Shown piece by piece: positions 34,322 through 64,000 of a stretch of 64,000 nt of DNA. Origin of the DNA: Haliea sp. E1-2-M8 (GTDB lineage: Bacteria > Pseudomonadota > Gammaproteobacteria > Pseudomonadales > Halieaceae); contig NZ_JAUTDR010000007.1 of assembly GCF_030649675.1 (NCBI RefSeq), forward strand, positions 1 through 64,000, read 5' to 3'. Below the pieces are notes generated by a model. That model was not told the origin of the DNA and did not search any database. It worked only from the letters and a program-made list of their open reading frames with translations. The first letter of the stretch is position 1, and each line of letters begins with the position of its first letter. The translations under genes and the position numbers were made by a program.

Positions 34322-34346
34322 AGGTGTTATGCGTTGCTGCGCGGCG

Positions 34347-46021: not shown

Positions 46022-47065
46022 CTAGCGCGAGCGGGTCCTGAAGAACTCCCAGATGGTCTCGGCCATCTCGATGTCGTTGTTCTGGTTGCCTTGGGCAGCC
46101 TGGAGCACGCCGCTCATTTTCGCTGCCCGACTTGGTTCGGTATGGCCGGCGCCCTGGACTTCATAGGCTATTACGGCGTTCCCGGCAGGAGAGCCTTCTC
46201 GAATGCGCTTGACGATTCTGGAATCGTCAGACTTGTTTTTGTCCTCCACTTCGGAAGTTCTTTCCGGCGCGCTCTCCAATTTGTTCCACTTTACCCAGGT
46301 ATTTGCTGTTTCACGCGCGGACAAAACGTCACCGCGGCCTCCTTTCATGGCGCCGCCCTCAAACGGTGCAATGGGGTCCGCGGTGCCGTGCATCATCAGA
46401 ATGGGAACGGGTTCCGAAGGTGGAGAGCATTTGTTGGCCCTGGGTAACAGCGCCACAACGGGAGCGACGGCAGCTACTTCCGAGGACATCTCCATCGCTA
46501 CCCTCATTGCCATATGACCGCCATTGGACATGCCCGTCACGTAGACACGCTTGCGATCCCCGTTGAGGTTTTCGACCGTGTAGTTGATCAGTTGCCTGAC
46601 GAACGCCACATCGTCTACCTTGGGGTTGTTTTTGGCATCCCGACGGCAGTCGTTCCAGGCAGGTTTGGACCGCCAACCTTCAGCCTCCATACCCAGGGGG
46701 TAGACAACGAGAAAGCCTTCGCGCTCCGCCACATCCATCCACTTGGAAGACGCCGAGCTGACGAGACCTTCACCCAGGATGTGCCGCATATTATCGCCAT
46801 AGCCGTGTAAATAGATCACGATCGGCAGCTGCTTGCTCGCGGAGTTTCCGGGTACGTAGTAGCTGAATTCGCGCTCATTTCCATCGACCGTCATCGTCTG
46901 TCTGTGCACACCTTGGGAGACCTCGGTCATCTCCTCTCCCCCCTGTGTCCGGGTTTCCTCTGCAGAACTTTCCGCGGAGGTGTTGGCGCAACCAAGAATG
47001 AAAAGTAGCACCGAGACGCCAAGGGTGATGTTCGGCAAAATGAGTTTCGAAGATAATCTGCGCAT
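46022..47065 (-). CDS. PHB-depolymerase/LpqC-type esterase, predicted lipoprotein
   Basis: A 347-residue alpha/beta hydrolase with a lipobox signal (SVLLFILGCANTS, Cys26). The catalytic Ser lies in VTGMSNGGHMAMR, the Asp in MMHGTADPIAPFEGG and the His in GAGHTEPSR. The oxyanion region is IVIYLHGYGDNM. This is the order seen in secreted poly(3-hydroxyalkanoate) depolymerase-like and feruloyl-type esterases. GGAG lies eight bases before the ATG at 47065. Substrate unknown: likely an extracellular or periplasmic ester. Confidence 0.88.
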   Translation of the reverse strand: MRRLSSKLILPNITLGVSVLLFILGCANTSAESSAEETRTQGGEEMTEVSQGVHRQTMTVDGNEREFSYYVPGNSASKQLPIVIYLHGYGDNMRHILGEGLVSSASSKWMDVAEREGFLVVYPLGMEAEGWRSKPAWNDCRRDAKNNPKVDDVAFVRQLINYTVENLNGDRKRVYVTGMSNGGHMAMRVAMEMSSEVAAVAPVVALLPRANKCSPPSEPVPILMMHGTADPIAPFEGGAMKGGRGDVLSARETANTWVKWNKLESAPERTSEVEDKNKSDDSRIVKRIREGSPAGNAVIAYEVQGAGHTEPSRAAKMSGVLQAAQGNQNNDIEMAETIWEFFRTRSR

Positions 47066-47247: not shown

Positions 47248-48465
47248 ATGAAGGACTTCAACCCCGAGATACGTCGTGTCGATATTGATGCCGAAGGCGG
47301 TCTCAAAGAGTACCTGGAGTTTATGCGCGAACAGCGGTCGGGCGACGCCCGGAATGTTATGGAGGGTGTGTTGCTGCAGCGGCCTGATTTCGCTCTGGGC
47401 CATATCCTCATCGGTAACACCTACTATCAGGAAAAGCGCATGGCGCTCGCGATCGAAGCCTACGAGCGCGCGCTGGAGCTAAACCCGAATATGGCCCCGG
47501 CGCCATTCATGATCGGCATCATTCATAAGCAAGGGGATGATCAGGACGCCGCCCGCAGGGCCTTCGAATCCTCGGTGAGCCTGTCGGCGGATTTTCTACC
47601 TGCACAGGTCGCACTGAACCTGACGCTAATCGATTCCGGCCAGCTTGCCGAAGCGGAAGAGCGTCTGCTGAGTCTGGTCGAGACCAATCCCCAGAATCTT
47701 GCTGCCCATCTTATGCTGGTAAACGTACTGACCAAGCTTGATCGGCTCGACGTGGCCGTTAAAAGACTGGAAGAGCTGGTTCGGGAAAATTCCGAGCTTC
47801 ACATCGTCCGTCAGATGTTGGGTAAACTGCACGTCCGCGCAGGCAACCTGGAACAAGCCAGGGCCGTCTTCCAGGAAGCCGTGGAGATCGCATCGGAACA
47901 CCCTACGATCCGCTATGAACTCGGCAATACTCATTACAAGCTGGGGGAGTACAAAGAGGCGGAGGAACAATTCAGGGAAGTGCTCAAGCGCTTCAAGTTC
48001 CTGAATCCCGTACAATACCGTCTGGCCGACACCCTGGTCCAAATGGGCAGGCTGGATGAGGCATTGAGCATTCTGCAGGGCATTGCGCGTCGATCAATGC
48101 GTGCCAATTCTGCCCATCAACGAATCGGTATTATTCAAACGCTGCAGGGCAACTACGATGCGGCGCTCCGATCTTACCGAGCTGCGCTGCGTTATGACCG
48201 TAATCTGCTGAAAAATTATCCCGATTTACGGGCTAAATTCCAGGATGTGCAGGACCCCGAGTCAGTTGCCAAAGAGCTGGCCCAGCGTTTTCGTGAAATA
48301 GACGCCGAGCCGCCCAAGCCGATGAGCCCTGAGCAGGCCAGGAAAGTTCGAGAGTTTCTCGCATCCACTGCAGCCAAGACGGCGATGGGCCGAATAGCAC
48401 AGCGCCTGCGTGACAAGTCGGGGGCTGCCGGCGAGAAGCGCGGGCACTGGGGCTCAAAAACCTAG
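47248..48465 (+). CDS. tetratricopeptide repeat protein
   Basis: A 405-residue protein built of about eight TPR units, clear examples being NTYYQEKRMALAIEAYERAL, GKLHVRAGNLEQARAVFQEA and GNTHYKLGEYKEAEEQFREV. A charged, partly disordered tail (about 340-405) follows. No signal peptide or transmembrane segment; a cytoplasmic scaffold is likely. It diverges from the esterase and converges on the 1045-residue protein gene, with a strong hairpin between them. Confidence 0.85.
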   Translation: MKDFNPEIRRVDIDAEGGLKEYLEFMREQRSGDARNVMEGVLLQRPDFALGHILIGNTYYQEKRMALAIEAYERALELNPNMAPAPFMIGIIHKQGDDQDAARRAFESSVSLSADFLPAQVALNLTLIDSGQLAEAEERLLSLVETNPQNLAAHLMLVNVLTKLDRLDVAVKRLEELVRENSELHIVRQMLGKLHVRAGNLEQARAVFQEAVEIASEHPTIRYELGNTHYKLGEYKEAEEQFREVLKRFKFLNPVQYRLADTLVQMGRLDEALSILQGIARRSMRANSAHQRIGIIQTLQGNYDAALRSYRAALRYDRNLLKNYPDLRAKFQDVQDPESVAKELAQRFREIDAEPPKPMSPEQARKVREFLASTAAKTAMGRIAQRLRDKSGAAGEKRGHWGSKT

Positions 48466-48547: not shown

Positions 48548-51500
48548 TCAGGGACTCGTGGGCGGCGCTACCGCACCGGTAATACCGATGTACTCCTGGG
48601 TATCCGTATCGCCATCGGTTTCCACCGCGATAATCGACGGATTCTGCAGGGTCACAAAGCCACCCAGGTCGAGTCCTTCGATACACACCGGCGGTGTGAA
48701 TGTGTCGGCGTTGTCGCGAATCAGCTCCACCGTCTGGTCCTCCCTGCTGGTGCCCACCAGTTCATCATCGGCAGTTTCCTGCGCTGCTCCACAGACTACA
48801 CCCTCCTGGCGCACCAGTAGCGAGAAGCTGTCCACTGAGGTAACGAAGCCCGGTGCACCAGCTGGACACTCTTTCACGTCTTCACCCACACTCGTGATGC
48901 TGCTGGTGGTCTTCAGGTTCAGGTCAAGGCAGGTCGAGTACAGTGCGCAGTCGCCGTTGACCGAGGAGTCACTGCCGAAACAATTGGGGGTATTCGGCAG
49001 GTCGGCGTTGCCGTCGCCGGTACTGCCGTCGTCGCCCCGGTCAACCACGATGGATACCGACAGGTCGTTCAGGCGTACCGCAGTCTCGACCGCATCGAGC
49101 GTCGCGGAATCGTCCACCAGCAGGAACTGCGGCGGGAGATTCTGCTGGGAGCAGAACAGCACTTCGTCCTGACCGGTAATGTTGAGCGGAGGCGTTCCAT
49201 TACAGGTTGTCCGCTCCAGTTCGAGGTCGACCGGGATAGTGGAGCAATCGTCAGCACGCACGCCGTGGCAGACGCCCTGCTTGATGGCGTCACCAAGTCC
49301 GGTGCCCTGGAAGATGGACTCGCAATCGGTTTCGTTGCGTACGCCGTGGCAGTAGCCGCTGGCGAGAGCGCCGTCCAGGTCGTCGCAGTTCACGGCCAGT
49401 ACATCATTGACGGTCGTCCCGGAACTCATGCACTGCGTTTTCAGGCCACCGGATGCCGACATGCTCGCGAACAGCTGGTTGATCGTGTCTACCGACAGCA
49501 GCACAGTCGCATCGCTGGCATTGGCGATCTGCATCGCAGGCGCCGAAGGTTGCTGGATAACCGCGCCCGGGCTCTGTTCGACGTCAGGGTCTAGTGTCAG
49601 GGTCTCGAAGTCACCACTCAACGCTGCCAGGAAACCCTGTGGGGTAATCTCCACCGAAGCCAGGCTGCCGGACAATGATGCCTGCCCGAACTCCTCCACC
49701 TTGGTCTCGTCGACCTTGATGTCGCCGAGTTCGATCGGGTCGGGTTCCGAGGCGCCGACAGCGTCCCCGACGTTGTCGAACTGGGTCGGGTCGACGGAAG
49801 TATCGATACCGAGATCAGCCTGGCCGAAGGTGAAGATCGTGACCAGCGCGTTGAGCGTAAAGTTGCAAAGTGCAGCGAATGTGCATTGGTCGAAATCGGC
49901 TTTGGGGAATGTCACATCCGTGGTGGAGCTAAAGCTCGGCTCCGGCACCGGCCCGCCGAAGAACTGCCCCTCGGTAATGTCAAAGCTGAAACTCAGGTCC
50001 TTGATTTTGGTATTGGCTATGACATCAACATCGGTCGAGTTGCCAACTCCAAGTACGCACTCCCCGCAACTGTCTTTGGCGGTGGAGACCACTTCTATGT
50101 CGGGCAACGTGACGGCAACCTCGATTTTGTCGTTGACAAAGGTCACCGGGCAACTGACGTCGGTTGGATCGATATTGACCTGGGTAATGTTGACCGGTGC
50201 GTTTGCCGTACAGGCGCAGGGGCCGGGGTCGATATTGAGCGTGGTGACAAATTGCGGCAGAGGACCTATTGCGTCCTTCACGGCGGTGGCAAACTGCTCA
50301 CCTACCGCCGGGCATTTCTGGTTGATCAGCGTCTGTACCGCCTGCGGTGTGAGGCCCACCACAAATGAATTTTCGATCGAGTCAGCTGTCAACTCCATCG
50401 CTTCAGCGATCGCCGGCGCCAATTCCCCCCGGGCGTTATGGTCGAATACGCCTGCCGCCTGGCTGGCCGACATTGCCGCCAGCGAGACGGCGGGCGACTG
50501 CACTCCGCCCACGGCGAAGATCACGTTGTCGAAGGCGCGATTACCCTGTTCGTCCAGGGCGTCCGCGGTCATGTCGTTGGCGCCGCGGTCGAGGGTGCCC
50601 AGCGGCTGGTTCCCACTGTCCAGGTCTGCGCGAAGGTCGGTCTGGGGAAGCAGTTCGTCGATGATGTACTCGTACTGGTCAGCGGTGGTCATGCCGTTGC
50701 CGGGGACGAAGGTCATGCTGGACAGGTCCAGCGGCGCTCCGTTCAGCTTGACCGCGGCGATGGGCAGGCCGTGCTTGACCGCGCCCTGTACCGGGGTCGG
50801 CACCGCACTGACAATCTCCTGGTCTGCTGGAGAGGTTATATCTACCCCGAATATCGCAAACTGGCCTAGGTCTTCCATGTTGTCGATGTAGCACTGGTCG
50901 CTTCCGGGTGGGCCGGGTATCGGGGCGTGTTGCACCCGTTCGCCGTCGACGTAGATGATGTGGCCGCCCGCGGGCAGTCCGTCCAGAGCGAAGGAGATCG
51001 TGTTGGAAGCGAACTGCTCCACGCTGGCGATATCGACTACCAGGTCCGAAACGGTAACGTTTTCACCGCCTATGACTACTGTGCCCAGGTCGCCCGGAAA
51101 GCTGCCGGGGAGCTCGCTGGCCGGGTTGATGCCCAGTTCGTCGAGGATATCCATGCCATCCACGAGTATTTCCAGGGAGGCGGGATCGAGTCCCGTGGCC
51201 GCCATCAGCACTTCAACGGTATCGCCGCTGTTAGATACCTGGCCTGTGGGCTGGTAAAGGCGCATGTAGGGTATGTTGGAGCAGTAGGCATGCACTACGT
51301 CGTCGCCTTCCGTCGCCGTGACCGAGAGCAGTGGAACCGGGGCGCTTATCTGTAAACCCCGGTTAGCAGGCTGCAGGCGGTAATCGCTCGGGGATACGCG
51401 GCTTTTTATATGAGCCAGGTCGCCATCCTGCACCGGCAGCGTACCAAGGATGTTGCCCTCGCTATCCAGCGCGAGCATTCTCGCCTGGAGCACGGCGGCG

Positions 51501-51685
51501 CCGCTGTCTCCGGTCAGTTCAATCCTGATACGGTGCTTGCCGACACAATCATTGCCCGGGTGGCCCTGGGTATAAGGTAGCGCACACTGGAGGCCGAGGG
51601 ATGCCTGGGCGCCTGAGGCGGTGAAGGGAAGCAGGCAAGTACCGAGTGCCGCGATTGCGAGAGACTTTAAAAATTTTATAGCCAT
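48548..51685 (-). CDS. large exported protein, 1045 aa, unknown function
   Basis: A 1045-residue protein with a clear signal peptide (FLKSLAIAALGTCLLPFTAS, then GAQA). It is acidic and rich in Val, Asp and Ala, with about 30 Cys, many in the C-terminal third (for example GYCHGVRNETDCESIFQGTG and QGVCHGVRADDCSTI, an internal repeat CHGVRxxDC). The N-terminal part has Ig-like beta features (GDTVEVLMAATGLDPASLEI, VFGVDITSPADQEIVSAVPT-like). No anchor or catalytic motif is seen. It could be an extracellular or periplasmic structural protein. The ATG at 51685 starts the signal peptide; the frame extends to 51808 without coding character. It diverges from the megasynthase genes. Confidence 0.72.
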   Translation of the reverse strand: MAIKFLKSLAIAALGTCLLPFTASGAQASLGLQCALPYTQGHPGNDCVGKHRIRIELTGDSGAAVLQARMLALDSEGNILGTLPVQDGDLAHIKSRVSPSDYRLQPANRGLQISAPVPLLSVTATEGDDVVHAYCSNIPYMRLYQPTGQVSNSGDTVEVLMAATGLDPASLEILVDGMDILDELGINPASELPGSFPGDLGTVVIGGENVTVSDLVVDIASVEQFASNTISFALDGLPAGGHIIYVDGERVQHAPIPGPPGSDQCYIDNMEDLGQFAIFGVDITSPADQEIVSAVPTPVQGAVKHGLPIAAVKLNGAPLDLSSMTFVPGNGMTTADQYEYIIDELLPQTDLRADLDSGNQPLGTLDRGANDMTADALDEQGNRAFDNVIFAVGGVQSPAVSLAAMSASQAAGVFDHNARGELAPAIAEAMELTADSIENSFVVGLTPQAVQTLINQKCPAVGEQFATAVKDAIGPLPQFVTTLNIDPGPCACTANAPVNITQVNIDPTDVSCPVTFVNDKIEVAVTLPDIEVVSTAKDSCGECVLGVGNSTDVDVIANTKIKDLSFSFDITEGQFFGGPVPEPSFSSTTDVTFPKADFDQCTFAALCNFTLNALVTIFTFGQADLGIDTSVDPTQFDNVGDAVGASEPDPIELGDIKVDETKVEEFGQASLSGSLASVEITPQGFLAALSGDFETLTLDPDVEQSPGAVIQQPSAPAMQIANASDATVLLSVDTINQLFASMSASGGLKTQCMSSGTTVNDVLAVNCDDLDGALASGYCHGVRNETDCESIFQGTGLGDAIKQGVCHGVRADDCSTIPVDLELERTTCNGTPPLNITGQDEVLFCSQQNLPPQFLLVDDSATLDAVETAVRLNDLSVSIVVDRGDDGSTGDGNADLPNTPNCFGSDSSVNGDCALYSTCLDLNLKTTSSITSVGEDVKECPAGAPGFVTSVDSFSLLVRQEGVVCGAAQETADDELVGTSREDQTVELIRDNADTFTPPVCIEGLDLGGFVTLQNPSIIAVETDGDTDTQEYIGITGAVAPPTSP

Positions 51686-52242
51686 AGTATATCGCCCCAT
51701 TTTACAAATGTTGAAAACAGGAACATACGTCTTGGGCAATCCTTGCAGGGAATTCGTGCATCCGGCCTGGTACAGAGCCCCCGGGTTTTCCCGCAGTGTT
51801 CCGAACACTTCCTGATCTCAGGCAAATGTGAAAACTCGGGGACGCTAAATGAAGGTAGGTTAGGAATTCGGCATGCGCAAGCGGGCCCCGGAAAAATAAA
51901 TAGCTCTGGTGTCAGGTTTTTTTACACTCTTGCCGTTTGCGTGACTGGAATTGGTATCAGGGAAACTATTTTCAGGATCTGCGTTGCGCAGAGGTCAGGT
52001 CGCGACTATATATTTTGTAGGCTGTATTAGAAACGGTGCTTGAATTGAGCAGGCGGACCATATATCGCTTTGCCAGTTGGTTACCGTCGGCTCACAAAGG
52101 CTTCCAAGCATAGAGAAGTCAGATCAAGGAGGCGCCCTGGCCCCACCCGGGATGGCGTCGTGTTTGCCGATGGTCTGGGTTCCTTTAACGCCGCTTTGGT
52201 CGTTGCTACGACTTGCTACGCAGTATTCCCTGGGGGGATGAA
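51686..52242. promoter_or_regulatory. 557-bp divergent control region before the megasynthase
   Basis: No gene is supported here. The region separates the exported-protein gene (minus) from the PKS-like genes (plus) and is less GC-rich than its surroundings, with patches such as GGTTTTTTTACACTC (51917) and GACTATATATTTTGTAGG (52004). Both promoters are expected to lie here; I cannot assign exact elements. Confidence 0.45.
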
Positions 52243-55200
52243 ATGGAAGTCAGTAATCGTCAACCAATTCAGGTGGTGGGCTACACCCCCGCCGAAATGG
52301 GATCGATCAGTTTACCCGTGGCCATCGCTCGCACGGGCGGCATCGGAGTGCTGGACCTCGAATTCAGTGAGCCTCAGCACGGGCTGGTGACGTTGCGCGA
52401 GTTACTGCGCTCCACCCGGGGCCGGGTAGGGGTTCGTCTCGGCGCACGTGCGCCGCATGAGTTTTCGGCTTTGCTGGATGAGCTCTCCGAGCGACAGCAT
52501 TGGCTGGTCGTAAGTCAGACGGGCGCCATCAGCCTGGCCGAACGCTGCGAACAGCTGCCGGCAAGCGACCATCGCGAGCTCGTGCTCGAAGTCACCGATG
52601 CGGCGGAACTCCATCTCGACAGGACACTGCCAGTCACTGCCATTGTGGCTCGTGGCAACGAAGCGGGGGGCCGGGTCGGTGAAGACAGCAGCCTGATACT
52701 GCTACAGAAGCTGTTGGCCACAACACACCTGCCCATCTACGTGGAGGGAGGGATCGGTGTCAACGCCGCCGCGGCCTGCTACAGCACAGGCGCCGCCGGC
52801 GTTGTGCTCGGCGCGCAGCTGCTAATGATGCCGGAATCGCCTCTACCGCAAGCGTGGCAGGACGAGTTGAGCGGGCTGGCCGGAATGGAGGCGCGGCAGT
52901 TTGGCGAACGTCTCGGTTTTCCTGTCAGAGTCCTCACCCGCCCGGGTTACAAGGTTACCGCATCGCTACTCCAGCTCGAGGAGGAATTGTTGGCCTGCGG
53001 CGCTTCCCCTGAGCAATGGCTCGGTCGGGCACTGCCCCTGGTTGGCTGGGGTGCGCCAGGCTTCAGCGCCTGGCCTGTGGGCCAGGAACTTGGGCTGGCG
53101 CAGCGCTACCGCGATCTTTACAAGACCACTGGCCGGCTGGTGAAAGCGATTTTCGCCGCCGCCAACGAATACCCTGCAATCTGCCGGGATACACCACCGC
53201 TCGCCGAGGGCGCACCGCTGGCCCGTTCCCATGGAACGCGTTACCCCATTGTTCAAGGCCCCATGACCCGAGTGTCGGATTGCCCGGAATTCGCCGACAA
53301 GGTAGCCGACGCGGGCGCGCTGCCGTTCATGGCGCTGGCGTTAATGAGCGGCGAGCAAGTGCACTCCATGCTGTTGGAGACCCACAAGTTGCTCGGGCAC
53401 AAAGCCTGGGGCGTGGGGCTGCTGGGTTTTGTGCCACAGCAACTTCGCGACGCGCAGATCAAGGCCGTATTCGAAGTAAAGCCGCCATTTGCGTTAATTG
53501 CCGGAGGCCGCCCCGATCAGGCCGCTGAATTCGAACGTAATGGAATTCCGGCATATATTCATGTCCCTGCGCCAGAACTGCTGAAGATGTTCCTGGAGCA
53601 GGGTGCCACACGCTTCGTGTTCGAGGGGCGGGAATGTGGAGGTCACGTCGGTCCCCTGTCGAGCTTGATTCTCTGGGAAACGATGATCGATGTGCTGCTC
53701 GAGAACGTTCCGCGCGGTCAGGAATCCAAAATACACGTGCTGTTCGCCGGCGGAATCCATGACGCTCGCTCTGCGGCGCTGGTCTCCGTGATGGCGGCTC
53801 AGCTGGTACATCGAGGTTTCCGTATTGGCGTCTTGATGGGGAGTGCCTATCTATTCACTGAGGAAATAGTCAGCAGCGGTGCGGTCAAGCAGCGCTATCA
53901 GGACGAAGCGATCGCCTGCCGCGCCACGATCAACCTGGAGACTGGTCCGGGGCACGCGAGCCGCTGCGCGGTGGGTCCGTTTTCACGTCACTTTTATCAG
54001 GAGCGCGCCCGGGCAAGGGCGGCGAAAAAATCTGCTGACGAGGTTCGCGACCATCTCGAGGGCCTCAACCTCGGGCGCCTGCGCCTGGCTGCGAAGGGTG
54101 TTACCCGCCTCGATGATGGTGAACTGGTTGAAGTGGATGAGGAAGAGCAGGTCAATGAGGGCATGTATATGCTGGGCCAGGCTGCGACACTGCGCGACAG
54201 CGTGGTTGCGGTAGAGGATCTGCATCGGGATGTCAGCGAAGGCTCAGCTGCGCTGCTCGGTTTGTCCCCGGCGCGCGCGGCTGCACCCAAACGCGCTGTG
54301 CGCCCCTCGGATATCGCCATCATTGGCATCGGGACGCTGCTGCCCAAGGCGCAGGGCCCGAACCAATACTGGCTCAACATCATCAACAAGGTCAACGCCA
54401 TTACCGAGGTTCCCCGCCATCGTTGGGATTCGCGTTTGTACTTCGATGCGGACCGCACCGCAGGGGACAAGATCTACTCCAAGTGGGGCGGGTTCCTGGA
54501 CGAGGTCGCCTTTGATCCGCTTGCCTACGGAATACCGCCAAACGCCCTGAGGTCCATCGAGCCCCTTCAGCTCCTGGCCCTGGAGACCGCCCGCCGCGCA
54601 CTGGAAGATGCAGGCTATGCCGATGGCGATTTCGATCGCGAGCACACCTCGGTCATCCTCGGTGCCGGTGGCGGAGCAGGTGACCTGGGGATGCAATATG
54701 CAGTGCGCTCCGAGTTACCCATGTTCGTCGAGGCTCCGTTGGAAAAGGCTTTTGCGCGGCTCCCGGAGTGGACCGAGAATTCCTTCCCGGGGCTGCTGCT
54801 TAATGTGGTTGCAGGCCGTATTGCCAACCGCTTCGATCTCGGCGGCACTAACTGCATTGTCGACGCGGCCTGTGCGTCGTCTCTGGCGGCGTTTGATATA
54901 GCCGTCAGTGAGCTGGAAAGCGGCCGCAGCAAAGTGGCGATTGTCGGCGGAGTGGATACGGTTCAAAGCCCCTTCGGGTTCATGTGTTTCAGCAAGACCC
55001 AGGCATTATCTCCGCGCGGTGAGGCCAATACGTTTGACAAACGCGGTGACGGCATCGTCATCAGCGAAGGGCTGGCCATGGTGGTGCTAAAGCCACTGGC
55101 CGATGCCGAGCGCGACGGCGATCGCATTTATTCAGTGATCAAGTCCATTGGCAGCTCCAGTGATGGCAGGGCACTGGGTTTGACGGCGCCGTTGCCGGCC

Positions 55201-58200
55201 GGGCAGATGCGGGCTCTCAGGCGCGCCTATGAGAAGGCAGGCGTGAGCCCTGCCTCGCTGGGTCTGGTCGAGGCACACGGTACCGGTACGGCGGTCGGTG
55301 ACTCGGCCGAGCTTGAGACGATAATCGCTACTCTGCGGAGCGAGAACGCCCGCCCCAAGTCCATTGCTATCGGTTCGGTCAAGGCCCAGCTGGGCCACAC
55401 CAAGGCCACCGCAGGCACGGCGGGGCTGGTGAAGGCTGTGTTGGCGTTGCACCACAAAGTATTGCCGCCACATGTCGGTGTCGAAAATCCTCTGGATCCT
55501 ATCGCCGCCGTCGACAGCCCGGTATTTCTGCTGGATGAGGCCAGGCCGTGGCTAACCGACGGCGTCACACCACGCCGTGCCGGGGTCAGCGCATTTGGTT
55601 TCGGCGGCACCAATTTCCACGTCGTTTTGGAGGAGTATAGCTCCGAGTTCCGCAGCAAGGCTCAACCGCTGGGCGCCAGCGACTGGCCTGTGGAACTGTT
55701 AGTGTTCCGTGCCGCTGACGCCGGCGCACTCAAGGCGCAGCTCACTCGCCAAATCCGCAATCTCGATACCGGCGCACAACCGCGCCTCGCCGACCTCGCT
55801 TATACCTGTGCCATTGCTGCGGAGCGTTCCGGTCCGGGAGTGCAAGCGGCAGTGGTGGTGCACGACCTTGCCGGGCTGGCGGACGCGCTGGTTGCTTTGA
55901 TGCAAGTACTGGATGGCGGTGACCCGAAGAGTCTGCCTCTGCACGTGCGCCTGCACCTGGGTTCCAGCGATGACGAGGCGCCCACGGTCGCGTTCCTGTT
56001 CCCCGGCCAGGGTGCCCAGTACATCGGCATGTTGCGCGAGCCGACGCTGTATTTGCGCGAGCCTCGTGTTGCCATAGAGTATGCGGACGCCCACTTGAAT
56101 GGGTGTTTCTCAAGTCCACTCAGTCAGCTGATCTATCCGGCGCAAGCATTCAGCGATGTGGATCGCGCTGCCCAGGATCGGGCGCTGACCGACACCCATG
56201 TCGCGCAGCCGGCTATAGTGACGACTTCGCTCGGTTACATGGATCTGCTGCGCCGGGTGGGCGTAGTGCCGCGCATGGCCGCCGGTCACAGCCTGGGAGA
56301 GTACGTGGCGTTACACGCGGCGGGCGTGATGTCGCGTGACGCTCTGCTCGATCTTGCGGAAATACGTGGACGAGCGATGGGCGCAGCCAACGCCGATGGG
56401 GACGCGGGGTCCATGGCGGTGGTTATGGCAACACGCGAAGAAGTGACAGCCTATATCGCCGACTATCCGGGCCTGGTCCTGGCTAACCATAACGCCCCGA
56501 CACAGTGTGCGATTTCTGGCGTCTCGGCCGACGTTACGGCAGTGGCGGAGGCATTGACAGCCAAGGGTGTCAGGGTAGTCAAGCTGCCGGTGGCGGGGGC
56601 GTTTCACTCACGGCTGATGGAAGCAGCACAGAGCCCGTTGACGGAAGCGATCAAAAAAGTAGAGTTCAGCCCACCGCTATTGCCCGTCTATGGCAATACC
56701 ACTGGAAACGTGTATAGCAATGATCCCGCTACAATCTGTGACCAGCTTCAGGGCCACATGCTTGGCAGCGTACAGTTCCTCGACCAGATCGAAAACATGT
56801 ACCGCGACGGTGCCAGCGTCTTTCTCGAGGTGGGCCCGAAGAATACCTTGACCGGATTGGTCAATTCAGTGCTCGGCGATCGTCCCCACACAGCGGTGGC
56901 TACCGACCTTAAAGACGGAGGGTTGCGCGGAATTCTGGGCGCCCTGGCCCAGCTGGTAGGCTGTGGCGTTCAATTGCGAGTGAGTGCCCTGTTTGAAGAT
57001 CGTGCTGTTAGCCGTCTGCCTCAGAGCTTGCAGGCACCGTCGTTGCCTGCAACTGCCTGGTGGGTAGACGGAGGGGGCATCAGGCCACAGAACGATCCGG
57101 TTCACCGCACTGGCAAAGAACCGGCACTCACACTGGAGACACGCGAAGTGTCTGCTGCGGAGCAACTGGCGAGCGCCCCGGCGGCGCGGCCGACTGCGTC
57201 TTACGCAGCCGCAGCAGCGGTACCGGAAACCAAAGCCAATGTTCCCCCTGTTGCCCCCGCAGTTTCGAAGCCGACTGCCCCTGTGCCAGGGGCCGTATCC
57301 GAGACCGCCCAGGCTTTCATTGCTGATGCGGCAGCGGTACAACTTCAGGCACTGGATCTCTACCACACTACCATGCGGCAGTTTCTGGCTGTGCAGGAAG
57401 GGGTCATCCAGAATTTCCTCGGCGGCAATGCAACCCAGGCTAGCTCTACCCTGGGTCCAAACATTCCTGCTCCTGCTCCTGCTGCCGTTGCGCAGAGCGC
57501 GGAGTCGTATGAGGATCGGCCAACACAGAGTTCCCAGGTAGAGGCGCCAACAGCACCTGCGGCGCCGGCAGGAGCCGCAGCTGACACAGTTGCCGCTGCT
57601 CCGTCAGCGAACACGTCGGTACCTGGCCTGAGCCGCGACGACCTGTCCGAATTGGTCCTGCGCCTGACGGCCGAGCGTACCGGCTATCCGGTCGAGATGT
57701 TGGCTCTGGAACAGGATATAGAGGCAGAGCTGGGCATCGACTCGATAAAACGTGTCGAGATTGTCGGCGCGCTGACGAAAGAACTTCCCGCCAGCATGCA
57801 AACGACACTGCAGGCGGACGTGGAAGCGCTGACCCGCGCCAAGACGCTCGCCGCGGTCATTGACGGCATCGCTGCGCATCTGCCATCGCAGAGCTCCGCT
57901 CAGGCAGGTTCGCCTGCACCTGCTGACGTCGTTAGTCCTGCTGCCGTTGCGATGGCGCCGGGTCTGAGCCGCGACGACCTGTCGGAATTGGTCCTGCGTC
58001 TGACGGCCGAGCGCACCGGTTATCCGGTCGAAATGCTGGCCCTGGAGCAGGATATAGAGGCGGAGCTGGGTATTGACTCGATCAAACGCGTTGAGATTGT
58101 CGGTGCCTTGACCAAAGAGCTGCCCGACAGCATGCAGGCCACCCTGCAGGCCGACGTGGAAGCGCTGACCCGGGCCAAGACACTCGCCGCGGTTATCGAT

Positions 58201-61200
58201 GGCATCGCCGCCCATCTGCCGTCGCAGGGCTCCGCTCAAGTGGATGTAGCGACACCCACGGTCTCAAATATTCCTGCTGCCGTTGCGGAGGCTCCGGGCC
58301 TGAGCCGTGACGATGTATCGGAGATGGTTCTGCGCCTGACGGCAGAGCGTACCGGGTATCCGGTGGAGATGTTGGCCCTGGAGCAGGATATCGAGGCGGA
58401 GCTCGGCATTGACTCGATTAAACGTGTGGAAATTGTCGGTGCCTTGACCAAAGAGCTGCCCGACAGCATGCAGGCCACCCTGCAGGCCGACGTGGAAGCG
58501 CTGACCCGGGCCAAGACACTCGCCGCGGTTATCGATGGCATCGCCGCCCATCTGCCGTCGCAGGGCTCCGCTCAAGTGGATGTAGCGACACCCACGGTCT
58601 CAAATATTCCTGCTGCCGTTGCGGAGGCTCCGGGCCTGAGCCGTGACGATGTATCGGAGATGGTTCTGCGCCTGACGGCAGAGCGTACCGGGTATCCGGT
58701 GGAGATGTTGGCCCTGGAGCAGGATATCGAGGCGGAGCTCGGCATTGACTCGATTAAACGTGTGGAAATTGTCGGTGCCTTGACCAAAGAGCTGCCCGAC
58801 AGCATGCAGGCCACCCTGCAGGCCGACGTGGAAGCGCTGACCCGGGCCAAGACACTCGCCGCGGTTATCGATGGCATCGCCGCCCATCTGCCGTCGCAGG
58901 GCTCCGCTCAAGTGGATGTAGCGACACCCACGGTCTCAAATATTCCTGCTGCCGTTGCGGAGGCTCCGGGCCTGAGCCGTGACGATGTATCGGAGATGGT
59001 TCTGCGCCTGACGGCAGAGCGTACCGGGTATCCGGTGGAGATGTTGGCCCTGGAGCAGGATATCGAGGCGGAGCTCGGCATTGACTCGATTAAACGTGTG
59101 GAAATTGTCGGTGCCTTGACCAAAGAGCTGCCCGACAGCATGCAGGCCACCCTGCAGGCCGACGTGGAAGCGCTGACCCGGGCCAAGACACTCGCCGCGG
59201 TTATCGATGGAATTGCTACCCATCTACCGACGCAGAATGCCCGGAGTGCCACATGGGCGGTTCCTGAGACTCCCGTTGCCAAACCGGACGACCTTACGTC
59301 ACTGGTGACCGAGCTGCCGCGTTTCATCATGAGTTCCAGGGTTCAGCCGCGCCCGGAGCCGGTGCCGCAAGTGGACAAGGGAGTGTACCTGCTGAGCGAC
59401 GACGGCGAGGGTTTGGCCGCCGCAGTTACCAAAGAACTTGAGCGTCGCGGTGGCGAAGCCCTGGTGATCACGCAGGATATTCTCGACGATCTGTTACTGC
59501 TTAGCGACGCACTGGACGCACTGCGAGCCGATAAAGTGCCTGTGCTGGGCGTGGTGCACCTGGCGTGCCATGCAGACGGCGAGTCAATGCAGTCTCTTCA
59601 AGCCTGGCGTGCGGCCGGCAACCGGCACAGCAAGGCGCTGTTTCGCCTGCTCAAGGCCTGCGCCAGCAATTTTGGCAGTGAGCAAACTTTCCAGGTGTTG
59701 AGCGTCAGTTGCCAGGGCGGTCATTTTGGTCGCGATGGCCAGATCACCTCGCCCACCGCCGGCGGTAGTGTCGGCCTGCTCAAGTCGGCGGCGGCGGAGT
59801 GGACGCAGTTGCAGATCAAGAATCTGGATCTGGCTCCCGGCGCCGGGTTTGAGGCCGATGCCGAAACCATTGTCAGTGAGTTGCTCTGCGAGCCGGACGC
59901 AGTGGAGGTAGGGTGCAGCGAGAATACCCGGCGTGTATTCCTGCCCGTTCCGGCGCCCTTTGCAGGCAGCTCCCCGGCGACGAACCTCGCACCGACTCCA
60001 GATTGGGTAGTACTGGCAACCGGCGGCGCCCGAGGGATTACCTTCAGCGTGCTGGACGCCCTGGTACCGGATGGCGCGACGGTCGTGCTGCTTGCACGCA
60101 GCCCGGAGCCGGAACCCGAGCCGGTCGCATTAGGTGAAGCGGCGGATAGCGCGGCCCTGAGAAGCTTGATTATCAGTGACGCAAAGGCGCGTGGTGAGCA
60201 GCCCTCTATCGTCGCCATAGAAAGCCGCGTCAACGCCATTATTCGTGATCGTTCAGTGCGCTCTAATCTCAGCGCCCTACGGCAACGCGGTATCAAGATC
60301 GATTACCTTCAGGCGGACGTCGCTGACGAGCAGCAATGCAACGCTGCAATCGACTCGGTATACGAACGTTTCGAGCGAATAGACGCCGTTATCCACGGTG
60401 CTGGAATCATTGAGGACAAGCTGATTGCGGGCAAAAGCCAGGAGTCGTTTGACCGGGTGTATGACACCAAAGCGGATAGCGGCTATTTGCTCAGTCAGCG
60501 CTTACGACCAGAATCACTAAAGTGGCTGATGTTTTTTACCTCCGTAGCTGGCCGGTTCGGCAATCGTGGTCAGAGTGATTACGCCGCCGGCAACGAGGTG
60601 CTCAATCGATTGGCGTGGTACCTGCATTCCCGGTGGGCCAACACGCGTGTGATAGCGGTGAACTGGGGCCCCTGGGACAGTGGTGGCATGGTATCAGAGG
60701 CGGTCAGGAAGCAGTTCGCAGAGCTCGGAATCATGGCAATCAGTCCGCAGGCCGGCATTGCGTTTGCGCGCAATGAGCTACTTCGGGGTTTGCCAACGGA
60801 CGTTGAGGTGGTGGCAGGGCAGGGCCCATGGGCTGCTGCCGGGCTGGAGCCCCAAGTCAGGGCTGGAACGTCCGGCAGTCGGTCGGGGTTCAATCTTGTT
60901 TTTGCAGACAAGAGCCCAGGAATGGAGCCTACCGGCGCGGTGTCGATGACGCGTGAATTCAGTCTGGCCAGTGATCCATACCTGGACGACCATCGGCTTG
61001 ACGGTGATCTTGTTGTCCCGGCCGCAGTCTGCGCGGAATGGATGGCCGAGACCACACAGCTTGGCTGGCCGGACCTTGTAGTGGCTGAGGTGCAGGACCT
61101 TCGGGTTCTGCAAGGAATTCAATTGGAGGATAGTGAGACCGCTTCCCTACAGGCGCGTGGTCGGGTTTCGTCGCATGCCGACGCCGCGGCCGTCAGGGTC

Positions 61201-61833
61201 AGTACTGAACTGAAGGATACCCGCAGTGGGCGCACCGCCTATCGTGCGGCTGTCCTGCTTCGTGATCGTTTACCGGACCCACCGGAAGCAACTCTGGAAC
61301 CACTGCCAGCGGGAGAGCCGTTAAGCGTGATGACGGCATACCGCGATTACCTCTTTCATGGTCAGCGATTTCAGCTGGTCAACGCGATCACGACAATCAA
61401 CGAACAAGGGATTGACGCCGAAATTCGCGGCAGTGATGCATTGCAATGGATTGATCCGCTGCTGAACAGGAAAAACGCGGCATCGCCGCCAGCCTGGTTA
61501 TTCGACCCTGGCATTGTGGACGTATGTCTCCAGATGTGCCTGGTTTGGGGGCGTGTCCATAAAGGCGTCAGTGCTCTGCCGGCGCGTTTCGGAACCGTCC
61601 GGCGCTATCAGCTGGCCGCCGTGCCAGAGACCCTTCTGCTTCGTCTTCGTATTCGGCCGGAGAGCACAGCGATTGCGGTGGTGTTTGATGCAGAGATCTC
61701 GACCCCGGATGGCCTTGTTCTCATGGCAATGGAAGATATCGAGACCATTGGTAGCGAGAGGTTCAACAGGCTGGCTGACAATACCGATGAGATGGGACGA
61801 TCAATCCTTGCCAAGGTTGGTCGAGCCGGATGA
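52243..61833 (+). CDS. PUFA/secondary-lipid synthase-like type I megasynthase: NPD-NPD-KS-AT-ACPx5-KR-DH
   Basis: A 3196-residue protein. Residues 1-320 and 330-660 are two flavin NPD/PfaD-type domains (second: YPIVQGPMTRVSD, ECGGHVGPLSSLILWE, MGSAYLFTEEIVSSGA). KS, about 688-1130: DAACASSLAA with Cys877, EAHGTGT with His1012, GHTKATAG with His1052. AT, about 1249-1530: GHSLGEY with Ser1350. After a Pro/Ala linker come five ACPs with LGIDSIKRVEI (Ser1834, 1946, 2058, 2170, 2282; spacing exactly 112). KR, about 2587-2800: ATGGARGITF, Ser2767, Tyr2780 in SDYAAGN. DH, about 2905-3180: HRLDGDLVVPA with His2917 and Asp3093. This is the PfaA layout with enoyl-reductase-like domains at the front, pointing to iterative synthesis of a long-chain lipid. 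The ATG at 52243 follows a G-rich SD. The next gene overlaps (ATGA). Confidence 0.9.
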   Translation: MEVSNRQPIQVVGYTPAEMGSISLPVAIARTGGIGVLDLEFSEPQHGLVTLRELLRSTRGRVGVRLGARAPHEFSALLDELSERQHWLVVSQTGAISLAERCEQLPASDHRELVLEVTDAAELHLDRTLPVTAIVARGNEAGGRVGEDSSLILLQKLLATTHLPIYVEGGIGVNAAAACYSTGAAGVVLGAQLLMMPESPLPQAWQDELSGLAGMEARQFGERLGFPVRVLTRPGYKVTASLLQLEEELLACGASPEQWLGRALPLVGWGAPGFSAWPVGQELGLAQRYRDLYKTTGRLVKAIFAAANEYPAICRDTPPLAEGAPLARSHGTRYPIVQGPMTRVSDCPEFADKVADAGALPFMALALMSGEQVHSMLLETHKLLGHKAWGVGLLGFVPQQLRDAQIKAVFEVKPPFALIAGGRPDQAAEFERNGIPAYIHVPAPELLKMFLEQGATRFVFEGRECGGHVGPLSSLILWETMIDVLLENVPRGQESKIHVLFAGGIHDARSAALVSVMAAQLVHRGFRIGVLMGSAYLFTEEIVSSGAVKQRYQDEAIACRATINLETGPGHASRCAVGPFSRHFYQERARARAAKKSADEVRDHLEGLNLGRLRLAAKGVTRLDDGELVEVDEEEQVNEGMYMLGQAATLRDSVVAVEDLHRDVSEGSAALLGLSPARAAAPKRAVRPSDIAIIGIGTLLPKAQGPNQYWLNIINKVNAITEVPRHRWDSRLYFDADRTAGDKIYSKWGGFLDEVAFDPLAYGIPPNALRSIEPLQLLALETARRALEDAGYADGDFDREHTSVILGAGGGAGDLGMQYAVRSELPMFVEAPLEKAFARLPEWTENSFPGLLLNVVAGRIANRFDLGGTNCIVDAACASSLAAFDIAVSELESGRSKVAIVGGVDTVQSPFGFMCFSKTQALSPRGEANTFDKRGDGIVISEGLAMVVLKPLADAERDGDRIYSVIKSIGSSSDGRALGLTAPLPAGQMRALRRAYEKAGVSPASLGLVEAHGTGTAVGDSAELETIIATLRSENARPKSIAIGSVKAQLGHTKATAGTAGLVKAVLALHHKVLPPHVGVENPLDPIAAVDSPVFLLDEARPWLTDGVTPRRAGVSAFGFGGTNFHVVLEEYSSEFRSKAQPLGASDWPVELLVFRAADAGALKAQLTRQIRNLDTGAQPRLADLAYTCAIAAERSGPGVQAAVVVHDLAGLADALVALMQVLDGGDPKSLPLHVRLHLGSSDDEAPTVAFLFPGQGAQYIGMLREPTLYLREPRVAIEYADAHLNGCFSSPLSQLIYPAQAFSDVDRAAQDRALTDTHVAQPAIVTTSLGYMDLLRRVGVVPRMAAGHSLGEYVALHAAGVMSRDALLDLAEIRGRAMGAANADGDAGSMAVVMATREEVTAYIADYPGLVLANHNAPTQCAISGVSADVTAVAEALTAKGVRVVKLPVAGAFHSRLMEAAQSPLTEAIKKVEFSPPLLPVYGNTTGNVYSNDPATICDQLQGHMLGSVQFLDQIENMYRDGASVFLEVGPKNTLTGLVNSVLGDRPHTAVATDLKDGGLRGILGALAQLVGCGVQLRVSALFEDRAVSRLPQSLQAPSLPATAWWVDGGGIRPQNDPVHRTGKEPALTLETREVSAAEQLASAPAARPTASYAAAAAVPETKANVPPVAPAVSKPTAPVPGAVSETAQAFIADAAAVQLQALDLYHTTMRQFLAVQEGVIQNFLGGNATQASSTLGPNIPAPAPAAVAQSAESYEDRPTQSSQVEAPTAPAAPAGAAADTVAAAPSANTSVPGLSRDDLSELVLRLTAERTGYPVEMLALEQDIEAELGIDSIKRVEIVGALTKELPASMQTTLQADVEALTRAKTLAAVIDGIAAHLPSQSSAQAGSPAPADVVSPAAVAMAPGLSRDDLSELVLRLTAERTGYPVEMLALEQDIEAELGIDSIKRVEIVGALTKELPDSMQATLQADVEALTRAKTLAAVIDGIAAHLPSQGSAQVDVATPTVSNIPAAVAEAPGLSRDDVSEMVLRLTAERTGYPVEMLALEQDIEAELGIDSIKRVEIVGALTKELPDSMQATLQADVEALTRAKTLAAVIDGIAAHLPSQGSAQVDVATPTVSNIPAAVAEAPGLSRDDVSEMVLRLTAERTGYPVEMLALEQDIEAELGIDSIKRVEIVGALTKELPDSMQATLQADVEALTRAKTLAAVIDGIAAHLPSQGSAQVDVATPTVSNIPAAVAEAPGLSRDDVSEMVLRLTAERTGYPVEMLALEQDIEAELGIDSIKRVEIVGALTKELPDSMQATLQADVEALTRAKTLAAVIDGIATHLPTQNARSATWAVPETPVAKPDDLTSLVTELPRFIMSSRVQPRPEPVPQVDKGVYLLSDDGEGLAAAVTKELERRGGEALVITQDILDDLLLLSDALDALRADKVPVLGVVHLACHADGESMQSLQAWRAAGNRHSKALFRLLKACASNFGSEQTFQVLSVSCQGGHFGRDGQITSPTAGGSVGLLKSAAAEWTQLQIKNLDLAPGAGFEADAETIVSELLCEPDAVEVGCSENTRRVFLPVPAPFAGSSPATNLAPTPDWVVLATGGARGITFSVLDALVPDGATVVLLARSPEPEPEPVALGEAADSAALRSLIISDAKARGEQPSIVAIESRVNAIIRDRSVRSNLSALRQRGIKIDYLQADVADEQQCNAAIDSVYERFERIDAVIHGAGIIEDKLIAGKSQESFDRVYDTKADSGYLLSQRLRPESLKWLMFFTSVAGRFGNRGQSDYAAGNEVLNRLAWYLHSRWANTRVIAVNWGPWDSGGMVSEAVRKQFAELGIMAISPQAGIAFARNELLRGLPTDVEVVAGQGPWAAAGLEPQVRAGTSGSRSGFNLVFADKSPGMEPTGAVSMTREFSLASDPYLDDHRLDGDLVVPAAVCAEWMAETTQLGWPDLVVAEVQDLRVLQGIQLEDSETASLQARGRVSSHADAAAVRVSTELKDTRSGRTAYRAAVLLRDRLPDPPEATLEPLPAGEPLSVMTAYRDYLFHGQRFQLVNAITTINEQGIDAEIRGSDALQWIDPLLNRKNAASPPAWLFDPGIVDVCLQMCLVWGRVHKGVSALPARFGTVRRYQLAAVPETLLLRLRIRPESTAIAVVFDAEISTPDGLVLMAMEDIETIGSERFNRLADNTDEMGRSILAKVGRAG
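58096..59210 (+). repeat. 336-bp tandem repeat, about 3.3 copies, coding ACP3-ACP5
   Basis: From 58096 (second half of ACP2) to 59210 the sequence repeats with a period of exactly 336 bases, equal to 112 residues, or one ACP plus linker. By eye the copies agree base for base, including the linker coding VDVATPTVSNIPAAVAEAPG. Identity stops at 59211, where GGAATTGC replaces GGCATCGC. ACP1 and the first half of ACP2 are clearly diverged in codon use. This points to recent unequal duplication or gene conversion. Confidence 0.92.
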
Positions 61834-64000
61834 GCCCGAACGACAGGGACGTGGCGATCGTCGGCATGTCGGCGCTGTTTGCCGGCGCCGGCAACCTGGC
61901 GCAGTACTGGCAAAATATTGTCGATGGAACATGTTCAATCGAAGAAGCGCCCGATTCATGGTCTTATCCTTACTATGACCCGGAATCCGATGACAGTGCC
62001 AGAATCTACACCCGCAAGGGTGGCTTCATCGCAGATCTCACGGATTTCAATTCCGCAGAGTTCGGTATAATGCCGAACGCCATCGACGGTAGTGACCCGG
62101 ATGGTTTTCTGGTTTTGCGACTTGCCCGGGATGCGCTGGCGGACGCCGGCTACCTGAACCGGGACTTTGATCGCTCCCGGGCCGGAATCATCATGGGCCG
62201 GGGTAATTATCTCAACAGAGGTCAGAGCGGGTTGATGCAGCATGGTCTGGTGCTGGACCAGACCGTGCAGTTGCTACAGCAGATGTTTCCGGAATTGTCG
62301 GACGAGAAGCTGGCTGAAGTCCGCGATAATCTGAAGCGCTCCCTGCCCCCATTCGGGCCTGAAACCATCCCCGGGCTTGTACCCAACGTGGTCACGGGTA
62401 GAGTGGCAAATCGGTTGAATCTGATGGGGCCGAACTATCTCGTGGACGCGGCCTGTGCCTCCACGCTTATCGCCATCGATCATGGCATCAAGGAGTTGCA
62501 CAGCGGACGCTGTGACCTCGTACTCGCCGGCGGCGTGCATGCCGCATCTCCGCCCGCCATCTCGATGGTGTTCTGCCTGATCGGAGCTCTCTCTCGAGGT
62601 GATCTCAGCCCATTTGGTGCCACCGCCGGTGGCACACTTTTGGGTGAAGGCATTGGTATCGTGGCGCTTAAGCGACACGCCGACGCGTTACGGGACGGCG
62701 ATCGTGTGTATGCAGTCGTTAAAGGGGTAGGCATCGCCAGTGACGGGCAGGCAAAAGGCTTGCTCGCCCCACGACTTGAGGGCGAGGTGCTGGCAATCGA
62801 GCATGGCTACAGCATTTCTGGCGTAGACCCGGGGACAATTGGTCTCATCGAGGCACACGGCACAGGCATACCGCTTGGAGATCAAACCGAACTGGCTGCC
62901 CTGACGCAGGTGTTTGGTGAACGGCGGGGCGAGCTGCCAGAATGCGCAATCGGTTCAGTAAAATCCATGATTGGCCATTGTCTCCCCGCGGCGGGCGCGG
63001 CTGGCGTCATTAAAACGGCACTTGCGCTCTACCACAAGGTATTGCCAGGGACCTTGTGCGACGAACCCAGTCCCGCGTTACCATTTGCGACATCGCGCTT
63101 CTACGTCAACAATGCGACTCGCCCCTGGATACATGGTAACAAAGACATCCCACGCCGTGCAGCTGTCAATTCCTTCGGTTTTGGCGGTATCAATGCGCAC
63201 GTCATCCTGGAGGAAGCGGCTGATCCAGAGGCACCGGAAGCCGCTGCCCTGCAGTGGCCCAGCGAAGTGGTCGCCATCTGCGGCAATACCCGCGAAGTGT
63301 TGCTGGGAAACATCGACCTGGTGCTCGAAGTTTTGGCTGGTCCAGACGTGCCCCGCCTGTGCGATCTTGCCTACACGCTTGCTTGCCTGCCCTCAGCTCG
63401 TGAGCGCCTCGTGGTAGTAGCAGCGTCAACCAGCGAGCTCGCAACAAAACTGGCCCGCGCACGCCAGGCACTGGAAAACCCGGATCGACACCGAATGCAG
63501 GCCCGCACCGGTCTGTTCTTCGACGACTCGCCACAGGCCCGGGGTCAAACCGCTTTCCTGTTCCCGGGCGAAGGCGCCCAGTACACCAATATGTTGGCTG
63601 ATCTGTGTGTGGTCTTCCCCAGCGTGCGCCGGTGGTTCGATCGTCTCGACGAAGCTTTTTTGAACGAGCACGCTACGCCCCCAAGTTCAATTATATTTCC
63701 GGTACCCACCGGGCTTACTACCGAGCAGCGCCAGGCGCTTGAAAATCGACTGTTTGCAATGGATCTCGGCTCCGAGGTGGTCACCATTTCCAACCTCGCA
63801 CTGATGGAGCTGTTACGGGAGCTGGGGGTGCCCTGTGATGTGATGCTGGGGCACAGCACTGGCGAGTTTGCCGCACTCGTGGCCGCGGGTGTTTTTCACG
63901 AACTCGCGGGGCCGCAAGGTTTACTGCAGAAAATGCGTGAGTTGCACGAACGTCACCAGGAACTGGAATGTAACGGCAGCATTATCACGGGCACCTTACT
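61830..64000 (+). CDS. second megasynthase subunit, KS-AT..., 3' end outside window
   Basis: At least 723 residues, still open at the window edge. It begins MSPNDRDVAIVGMSALFAGA, with its ATG inside the stop of the upstream gene. KS, about 8-450: VDAACASTLIAIDHG with Cys209, EAHGTGIPLGDQTE, SVKSMIGHCLPAAGAAG, and FGFGGINAHVILEE. AT from about 570: TAFLFPGEGAQYTNM and MLGHSTGEFAALVAAG with Ser676. In PUFA synthases the second large subunit (PfaC) has KS-CLF-DH domains and PfaB carries AT; a KS followed directly by an AT here suggests a different split of domains. Both KS and AT have complete active sites, so this should be an elongating module. The end must be read downstream. Confidence 0.88.
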   Translation, partial: MSPNDRDVAIVGMSALFAGAGNLAQYWQNIVDGTCSIEEAPDSWSYPYYDPESDDSARIYTRKGGFIADLTDFNSAEFGIMPNAIDGSDPDGFLVLRLARDALADAGYLNRDFDRSRAGIIMGRGNYLNRGQSGLMQHGLVLDQTVQLLQQMFPELSDEKLAEVRDNLKRSLPPFGPETIPGLVPNVVTGRVANRLNLMGPNYLVDAACASTLIAIDHGIKELHSGRCDLVLAGGVHAASPPAISMVFCLIGALSRGDLSPFGATAGGTLLGEGIGIVALKRHADALRDGDRVYAVVKGVGIASDGQAKGLLAPRLEGEVLAIEHGYSISGVDPGTIGLIEAHGTGIPLGDQTELAALTQVFGERRGELPECAIGSVKSMIGHCLPAAGAAGVIKTALALYHKVLPGTLCDEPSPALPFATSRFYVNNATRPWIHGNKDIPRRAAVNSFGFGGINAHVILEEAADPEAPEAAALQWPSEVVAICGNTREVLLGNIDLVLEVLAGPDVPRLCDLAYTLACLPSARERLVVVAASTSELATKLARARQALENPDRHRMQARTGLFFDDSPQARGQTAFLFPGEGAQYTNMLADLCVVFPSVRRWFDRLDEAFLNEHATPPSSIIFPVPTGLTTEQRQALENRLFAMDLGSEVVTISNLALMELLRELGVPCDVMLGHSTGEFAALVAAGVFHELAGPQGLLQKMRELHERHQELECNGSIITGTL

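Follow-up and report, generated by a model that had tools for sequence, protein, structure and literature searches.

An ArsA-clade iterative synthase with a fused NPD pair in Haliea sp. E1-2-M8 and the long-chain lipid it may make

Two overlapping synthase genes

Contig NZ_JAUTDR010000007.1 of Haliea sp. E1-2-M8 carries two large, overlapping genes for an iterative lipid synthase, whose relationship and likely product are examined here. The window, i.e., the whole stretch of DNA that was analyzed, comprises positions 1-64000 of this 206-kb contig, in an assembly of 94 contigs. The first synthase gene is a single open frame (52243-61833, forward strand, 3196 aa) with an ATG start at 52243, preceded by the sequence GGGGGGA, which ends 5 bases short of the ATG. 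The encoded domain order is NPD-NPD-KS-AT-ACP5-KR-DH (KS, ketosynthase; AT, acyltransferase; ACP, acyl carrier protein; KR, ketoreductase; DH, dehydratase), as given by Pfam matches to NMO (two stretches), KS, AT, PP-binding (five), KR, PKS_DH_N and PS-DH. Most Pfam scores are far above the cut-offs, so this is not a chance frame, and the single 3196-residue chain described in an earlier interpretation made from the letters alone (the sequence-only reading) is confirmed. The second synthase gene starts on the stop of the first, through the ATGA at 61830.

52243-53206, forward strand: NPD1 (residues 1-321), a degenerate FabK-like TIM barrel (pseudo-enoyl-reductase); NMO 28.3 bits against a cut-off of 28.0; NEAGGR in place of xExGGH
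53209-54282, forward strand: NPD2 (residues 323-680), a FabK-like enoyl reductase with intact GGH motif; NMO 58.7 bits; FabK model TIGR03151 E 2.4e-20, below its cut-off
54307-55635, forward strand: KS1 (Cys877, His1012, His1052); PF00109/PF02801 and KS trees
55987-56901, forward strand: AT1 (Ser1350, His1455); PF00698; NCBIfam fabD 182.4 bits, under the 260.9 cut-off
57625-59235, forward strand: five tandem ACP domains; five PP-binding stretches; Tandem Repeats Finder unit of 336 bp x 4.8 with 93% matches
60010-60678, forward strand: KR; PF08659, 131.1 bits
60934-61746, forward strand: DH1, a polyketide synthase (PKS)-type double hot dog; PF21089 and PF14765
61830-64000, continuing to contig position 66482, forward strand: second synthase gene, KS2-AT2-DH2 with a truncated tail resembling a phosphopantetheinyl transferase (PPTase), 1550 aa; Pfam and alignments; cut by the window end

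AT1 is presumably of the malonyl type, which we take from the arginine that follows GHSLGE. The ACP repeats at 57625-59235 are near-identical, and the assembly may have collapsed or expanded their copy number.

That the next gene opens with KS-AT was borne out by Pfam and by alignment with homologues. KS2 has its cysteine, conserved in 36 of 37 rows that are not gapped there, as well as both histidine motifs, which marks the partner as a second condensing unit, not a chain-length factor (CLF). The GHSxG motif of AT2 is present in 38/38 rows; one position is arginine in 19 of these 38 aligned rows, including the window, and the substrate is not readable from the alignment. By analogy with PfaB, to which the title of PMC12895367 gives a releasing role, AT2 could possibly be a releasing enzyme. 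No FabA-type DH was matched in either synthase protein (Pfam, E 0.001). In another genome (G014) the homologue has a PPTase domain; the C-terminal tail of the second protein aligns with the beginning of that domain, ends early and gives no ACPS match. Pfam recognized a PPTase in the partner protein of four of six relatives scanned; motif patterns (strict, 0 of 38 rows; looser, 8 of 38) were too narrow to be informative.

The genes further downstream, which the sequence-only reading had pointed to as worth inspecting, are a small ACP (weak match), an AlkP-type phosphodiesterase (PF01663), an alpha/beta hydrolase and then a cupin gene on the other strand, with a separate PPTase gene 4.2 kb beyond the second synthase gene. 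The partner is KS-AT-DH; no KS-CLF partner was present among the genes read.

A degenerate and an intact reductase domain

The two NPD domains had been called PfaD-type in the sequence-only reading, which the family models do not support. Neither domain was matched by the NCBIfam PfaD model TIGR02814 (E up to 0.1) or by Pfam PfaD_N (PF18328; E up to 1), and TIGR02814 finds nothing on the contig and one sub-threshold match elsewhere in the genome. As a control, TIGR02814 did detect above-cut-off PfaDs elsewhere in the class (12 of 185 genomes), and PfaD_N was found in a heterocyst-type cluster of Fischerella. Instead, the FabK model TIGR03151 matches both NPDs weakly (45.7 and 73.0 bits; cut-off 453.1). 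In a Foldseek search (50 best rows) the nearest chains to the NPD pair were FabK and its kin, each covering the length of one barrel only. TM-scores by target length were 0.84-0.88 for FabK chains vs 0.42-0.52 for chains of the PfaD study, which are longer and thereby score lower on this measure; normalized by query length, the scores differ little (0.38-0.42 vs 0.33-0.38). A PfaD fusion was rejected because no PfaD model matched and the fold is nearer to FabK. With the GGH motif and fold present and the curated cut-off not reached, NPD2 is FabK-like rather than FabK.

According to excerpts of PMC13311796, the enoyl reductase motif xExGGH contains the proposed catalytic histidine. At this position NPD1 of the window has an arginine, contrary to the earlier statement that all catalytic residues checked were present. 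The loss is general: in an alignment of 67 NPD-NPD rows (frames having 640 aa or more ahead of the KS; duplicates of window and G014, four rows, removed; one genome represented twice, L046/L144) the histidine is found in NPD2 in 67/67 rows vs 1/67 in NPD1 (L093), where the position is mostly tryptophan (29) or arginine (16). Mean column conservation is 0.48 in NPD1 and 0.72 in NPD2. An AlphaFold2 model of residues 1-688, built from 51 sequences, has a mean predicted local distance difference score (pLDDT) of 93.5 and a predicted TM-score (pTM) of 0.94, and thus predicts confidently how the two barrels lie relative to each other. Because NPD1 lost the histidine, NPD2 kept it and the model packs both barrels as one confident unit, the pair looks like a pseudo-reductase/reductase couple.

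Relatives, KS phylogeny and distribution

The KS domains were placed in trees with those of PUFA (polyunsaturated fatty acid), heterocyst-type and phenolic-lipid (ArsA) synthases, the comparison that the sequence-only reading had suggested, and the window joins ArsA, apart from PfaA and the heterocyst-type enzymes. In a tree of 73 rows the NPD-fused KSs form one group (29 rows, support 94/98) and the PfaA-type KSs another (8 rows, 100/99), the two joining with 88/89. Within the NPD-fused group, Azotobacter and genome G110 (100/99) stand beside the rest (99/98), with a Bacteroidota copy outside both, and KS1 of the window lies in the sister branch of ArsA, not inside the ArsA branch. A quicker 83-row tree again put the window in the NPD group (97 SH-aLRT), separate from and neighboring the PfaA clade, which the heterocyst-type KSs joined (99 SH-aLRT). 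Rows left out of it beforehand were L186, L190 and two CLF-like second KS domains (long, or on long branches in the 73-row tree), and the program warns of long branches among the remaining CLF-like rows. The cyHgl labels in this tree are our own, L200 being identified by its gene content (KS-AT-ACP, KR-DH, tandem-KS and PfaD), and L205, a planctomycete cluster, was taken along.

Azotobacter ArsA-ArsD (arsABCD) share with the window the NPD-NPD-KS-AT-ACP-KR order in one chain, the KS clade, a dead NPD1 next to an intact NPD2 motif (L092, L096, L104), and a partner region with PS-DH plus a PPTase or, in the window, a truncated PPTase-like tail. Unlike ArsA, the first protein of the window has a C-terminal DH and five ACPs. 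Its partner differs from that of Azotobacter in having KS-AT and in the truncation of the tail. Searches of the genome with PF00195, PF02797 and the A. vinelandii protein found no type III PKS, a gap in the 94-contig assembly being possible. PF00195 is a poor probe for this enzyme, missing that of A. vinelandii, whereas the A. vinelandii protein query recovers both its copies.

The Pfa PUFA synthases (Types A/B) resemble the window in their iterative KS-AT-ACPn-KR subunit, in the neighboring KS clade and in matching TIGR02813 above cut-off. In contrast to them, the window has no PfaD, no KS-CLF and no FabA-type DH; the FabK-like enoyl reductase (ER) is N-terminal, fused and doubled; and the partner is not a PfaC-type KS-CLF-DH2 protein, being KS-AT-DH with one, Cys-bearing KS. 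Heterocyst-glycolipid-type synthases (Fischerella L200) have similar KS-AT-ACP and KR-DH parts but differ in that two of their KS domains stand in tandem, PfaD (PF18328) is encoded separately and the KS groups with PfaA. Fischerella muscicola (G058; L200, L029) has both a heterocyst-type cluster with PfaD and an NPD-NPD cluster. In a comparison of our own, the thraustochytrid ERb/ERc heterodimer described in excerpts of PMC13311796 is also a pairing of two TIM-barrel ERs in a secondary-lipid synthase, although there both keep GGH and lie on different subunits, whereas those of the window are consecutive and one is dead.

The sequence-only reading had considered the ER a separate protein in known synthases. 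This holds for bacterial Pfa but not for Azotobacter ArsA, with NPD-NPD before the KS, nor for thraustochytrid Pfa, which have ERs inside the large subunits (excerpts of PMC13311796). Nor is the architecture unprecedented, since domain order and KS trees give it to a large clade that includes the characterized ArsA. A GTDB genome scan with an alignment of NPD2 and linker found 171 relatives (225 candidate stretches); the 80 best were retained and, with the window and G014, make up 82 loci. In tblastn searches KS1 follows NPD2 in 80/80 kept loci, and NPD1 was seen in 78/82. The 80 loci span 17 named phyla, with two loci unassigned; many are metagenome bins, so that an isolated odd phylum may reflect a binning error. 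Three of the 80 are from Azotobacter and have two type III PKS genes directly behind (the ars operon). The fused NPD pair is therefore the normal layout of a widespread enzyme family, not a new one. Shulse and Allen (2011; excerpts of PMC3098273) distinguished 20 types of such synthases, with Azotobacter as Type P. The window agrees with Type P in its KS clade and domain order, though not in its partner genes, and its layout may equal another of their types, Type O or other.

KS phylogeny and domain order thus largely place the locus in a characterized class, an outcome the sequence-only reading had allowed for; the literature search found no product for the window's two-KS branch and, among the matches listed, no description of this two-KS operon. 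It also gave no paper on hglE-KS in Halieaceae, and the excerpts of PMC4247773, on heterocyst-type KSs, do not mention this layout.

Both window KSs sit with cyanobacterial KSs in the 73-row tree (KS1 90/89, KS2 93/91), and their best identities are 73% to Fischerella for KS1 and 64% to G065 for KS2. Among 57 relatives of the genome, only G014 gave a full NPD-NPD-KS match (52%), and seven same-genus genomes are without one; G110, which groups with ArsA, is a third gammaproteobacterium with an NPD-fused KS. Common descent with G014, the one other of 36 family members searched with the full synthase, was rejected by the AU (approximately unbiased) test (KS1 p 0.0004, KS2 p 0.00005), with the pairs chosen after the tree was seen and the p-values therefore optimistic. 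The synthase locus was probably acquired horizontally, the nearest copies being cyanobacterial. Base composition was of little help, with GC contents of 61.5% for the first synthase gene, 58.5% for the second, 56.8% from the ACP to the hydrolase and 63.2% for window positions 1-38000. In G014 the first synthase gene (L026:10671-18985) is split into two frames within the KR, through a sequencing error or in reality. Two second-synthase genes lie on different contigs in G066 (L155, L163) and in G081 (L159, L164), which suggests two copies of the pathway in each.

Proposed product and the surrounding cluster

Judged from sequence, the locus would encode an ArsA-clade, two-subunit iterative type I fatty-acid synthase that makes a saturated long acyl chain for an envelope lipid, not a PUFA; we give this a probability of about 0.6. 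We expect a saturated chain because the genes cover every step of full reduction, lack the parts specific to PUFA synthases, and have ArsA as their closest tested relative. As a best guess, the product is still what the sequence-only reading had proposed, a lipid, long-chain or modified, that standard Pfa enzymes do not make. Excerpts report that ArsA makes C23-C25 fatty acids (PMC4824345) and hands acyl-ACP to ArsB/ArsC (PMC6274091). In Azotobacter these acyl chains go into alkylresorcinols, which are lipids of the cyst.

In the window, AT1 would load malonyl units onto the tandem ACPs, KS1 together with KS2 of the partner would elongate the chain, the KR would reduce and the PKS-type DH domains dehydrate. 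Each double bond would then be saturated by NPD2, acting as a flavin mononucleotide-dependent FabK-like reductase with the catalytically dead NPD1 as its brace. The saturated long chain may be transferred to the free-standing ACP or set free by the nearby alpha/beta hydrolase, and AlkP-superfamily enzymes could then join other proteins of the cluster in building it into an envelope lipid. The anatomy of genes and domains, the lost NPD1 histidine, the clade and the recurrent cluster are shown by the data; that reduction is complete, how long the chain is, in which order the steps run and where the chain ends up are what we infer. The locus would be a handle on a widespread and largely uncharacterized lipid pathway for which ArsA supplies a tested relative; the recurring neighbor genes point to candidates for the head-group enzymes, and the pairing of a dead with a live reductase amounts to a specific proposal, open to testing, on double-bond reduction in these synthases.

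Several observations weigh against this assignment. The PfaA model TIGR02813 scores 1466.6 bits against a cut-off of 1010.1, and automatic annotation would thus call the protein a PUFA synthase. In the ArsD frame nothing beyond PS-DH and PPTase was matched, and because the partner of the window differs from that of Azotobacter, chain length is not transferable from ArsA. No solved structure with the two-barrel pairing was among the 50 best Foldseek rows. In the 36 loci surveyed below, the phosphodiesterase is absent from 12 and the ACP from 10; the cluster profiles were built from the same loci, and that of the hydrolase is broad.

A genuine PUFA synthase with a fused ER, in which intermediates skip the ER in some cycles to give polyenes, is an unlikely alternative. 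Besides the PfaA score, KS1 is 45-52% identical to PfaA-type KSs, and there are five ACPs, PfaA having 4-6 (excerpts of PMC3098273). On the other hand, the KS belongs to another clade, there is no KS-CLF partner, and neither protein gave a match to the PfaD family or to a FabA-type DH. The ACP number is a local amplification, not a family rule: among 41 frames longer than 2200 aa, the window included, the ACP motif was counted once in 30, twice in six, three times in one and, by this pattern, never in three, and five ACPs are peculiar to the window. Five ACPs were therefore rejected as a PUFA signature.

It seems just as unlikely that beta-hydroxyls of the chain are sulfated or phosphorylated and then eliminated to a terminal alkene, an ending for which CurM is the precedent. 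A sulfotransferase family (F5) occurs in 11 of the 36 loci, and AlkP-type enzymes and a thioesterase-like hydrolase adjoin the synthase. However, no sulfotransferase was found among the window's neighbor genes scanned with Pfam, and AlkP-superfamily enzymes are known chiefly for the removal or transfer of such groups.

There is a small chance that this strain carries the cluster in a decaying or silent state. The tail of the second protein extends 265 aa past the DH motif, compared with 333-385 aa in 29 of 38 rows; however, both long frames are open, the KS, AT and ACP motifs are intact, the separate PPTase gene lies close by, and the relatives L132, L136 and L146 are likewise short there (233-264 aa). 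The alkyl part of a phenolic lipid, as with ArsA, is a very improbable product: KS1 falls in the ArsA-containing clade, but the genome gave no type III PKS in the searches above, and by tblastn a nearby one was seen at only 3 Azotobacter loci of 82.

The recurrence of the neighbors of the synthase was surveyed. Downstream genes were listed as greedy frames in 38 loci (36 fetched, the window and G014) and re-searched with profiles made from them. Among the 36 loci with at least 4 kb past the second synthase gene, window included, the ACP is found in 26, the phosphodiesterase in 24, the hydrolase in 25, all three in 17, and family F3 in 20; some profile matches are on the opposite strand or at a distance of several kb. 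Having been chosen for a second synthase gene on a long contig, these loci are not a random sample. Across the 82 loci the window's neighbors recur at least as follows, many flanks being short: phosphodiesterase 25, hydrolase 24, ACP 16, TauD 2. The cluster around the synthase is recurring but not universal. Eleven neighbors had no match in the 82 loci: three at 33450-37608, the cupin, PPTase, PKD, GNAT, PAPS-reductase-like, epimerase and beta-lactamase-like genes, and the gene at L010:9015. Tracing F3 back from other loci identified its homologue (45% identity) at 43185-45695 of the window.

38312-40822, reverse strand: HlyD-type membrane-fusion protein, 836 aa; PF16576/PF13437; 18/82 loci
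40743-41969, reverse strand: CoA-transferase family III, copy 2; PF02515; 3/82 loci
41970-43175, reverse strand: CoA-transferase family III, copy 1; PF02515; 3/82 loci
43185-45695, reverse strand: propeller-like protein (family F3) with a C-terminal PlsC-like stretch below cut-off; no Pfam match, "propeller" being our reading of the sequence; N-terminal part in 24/82 loci
46022-47065, reverse strand: alpha/beta esterase, recurrent in related loci; 11/82 loci
47248-48465, forward strand: TPR protein, possible cluster member; weak, 25-27% identity in 11/82 loci, attainable by TPR repeats alone
48548-51808, reverse strand: 1086-aa frame adjoining the synthase; no Pfam family; one match in 82 loci (29% over 328 aa)
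Contig 77872-78687 (L010:5873-6688): small sulfatase-fold gene, 271 aa; 58-71% identity in 11 other loci

A wider and more tentative proposal is that the two-KS branch might form the core of an unrecognized, horizontally traveling envelope-lipid pathway in Cyanobacteria, Proteobacteria, Planctomycetes, Chloroflexi and more. It would consist of the synthase pair, ACP, AlkP phosphodiesterase, hydrolase, propeller-like protein and small sulfatase-fold enzyme, with the AlkP enzymes installing or processing an unusual head group and the ER acting as an obligate intramolecular pseudoenzyme/enzyme dimer. In this genome the cluster begins at about 38.3 kb of the contig and may extend to 78.7 kb, unrelated genes being interspersed. 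The small sulfatase-fold gene is among the best conserved parts of the cluster, and ends less than 1 kb before NPD1 in 10 of its 11 other loci.

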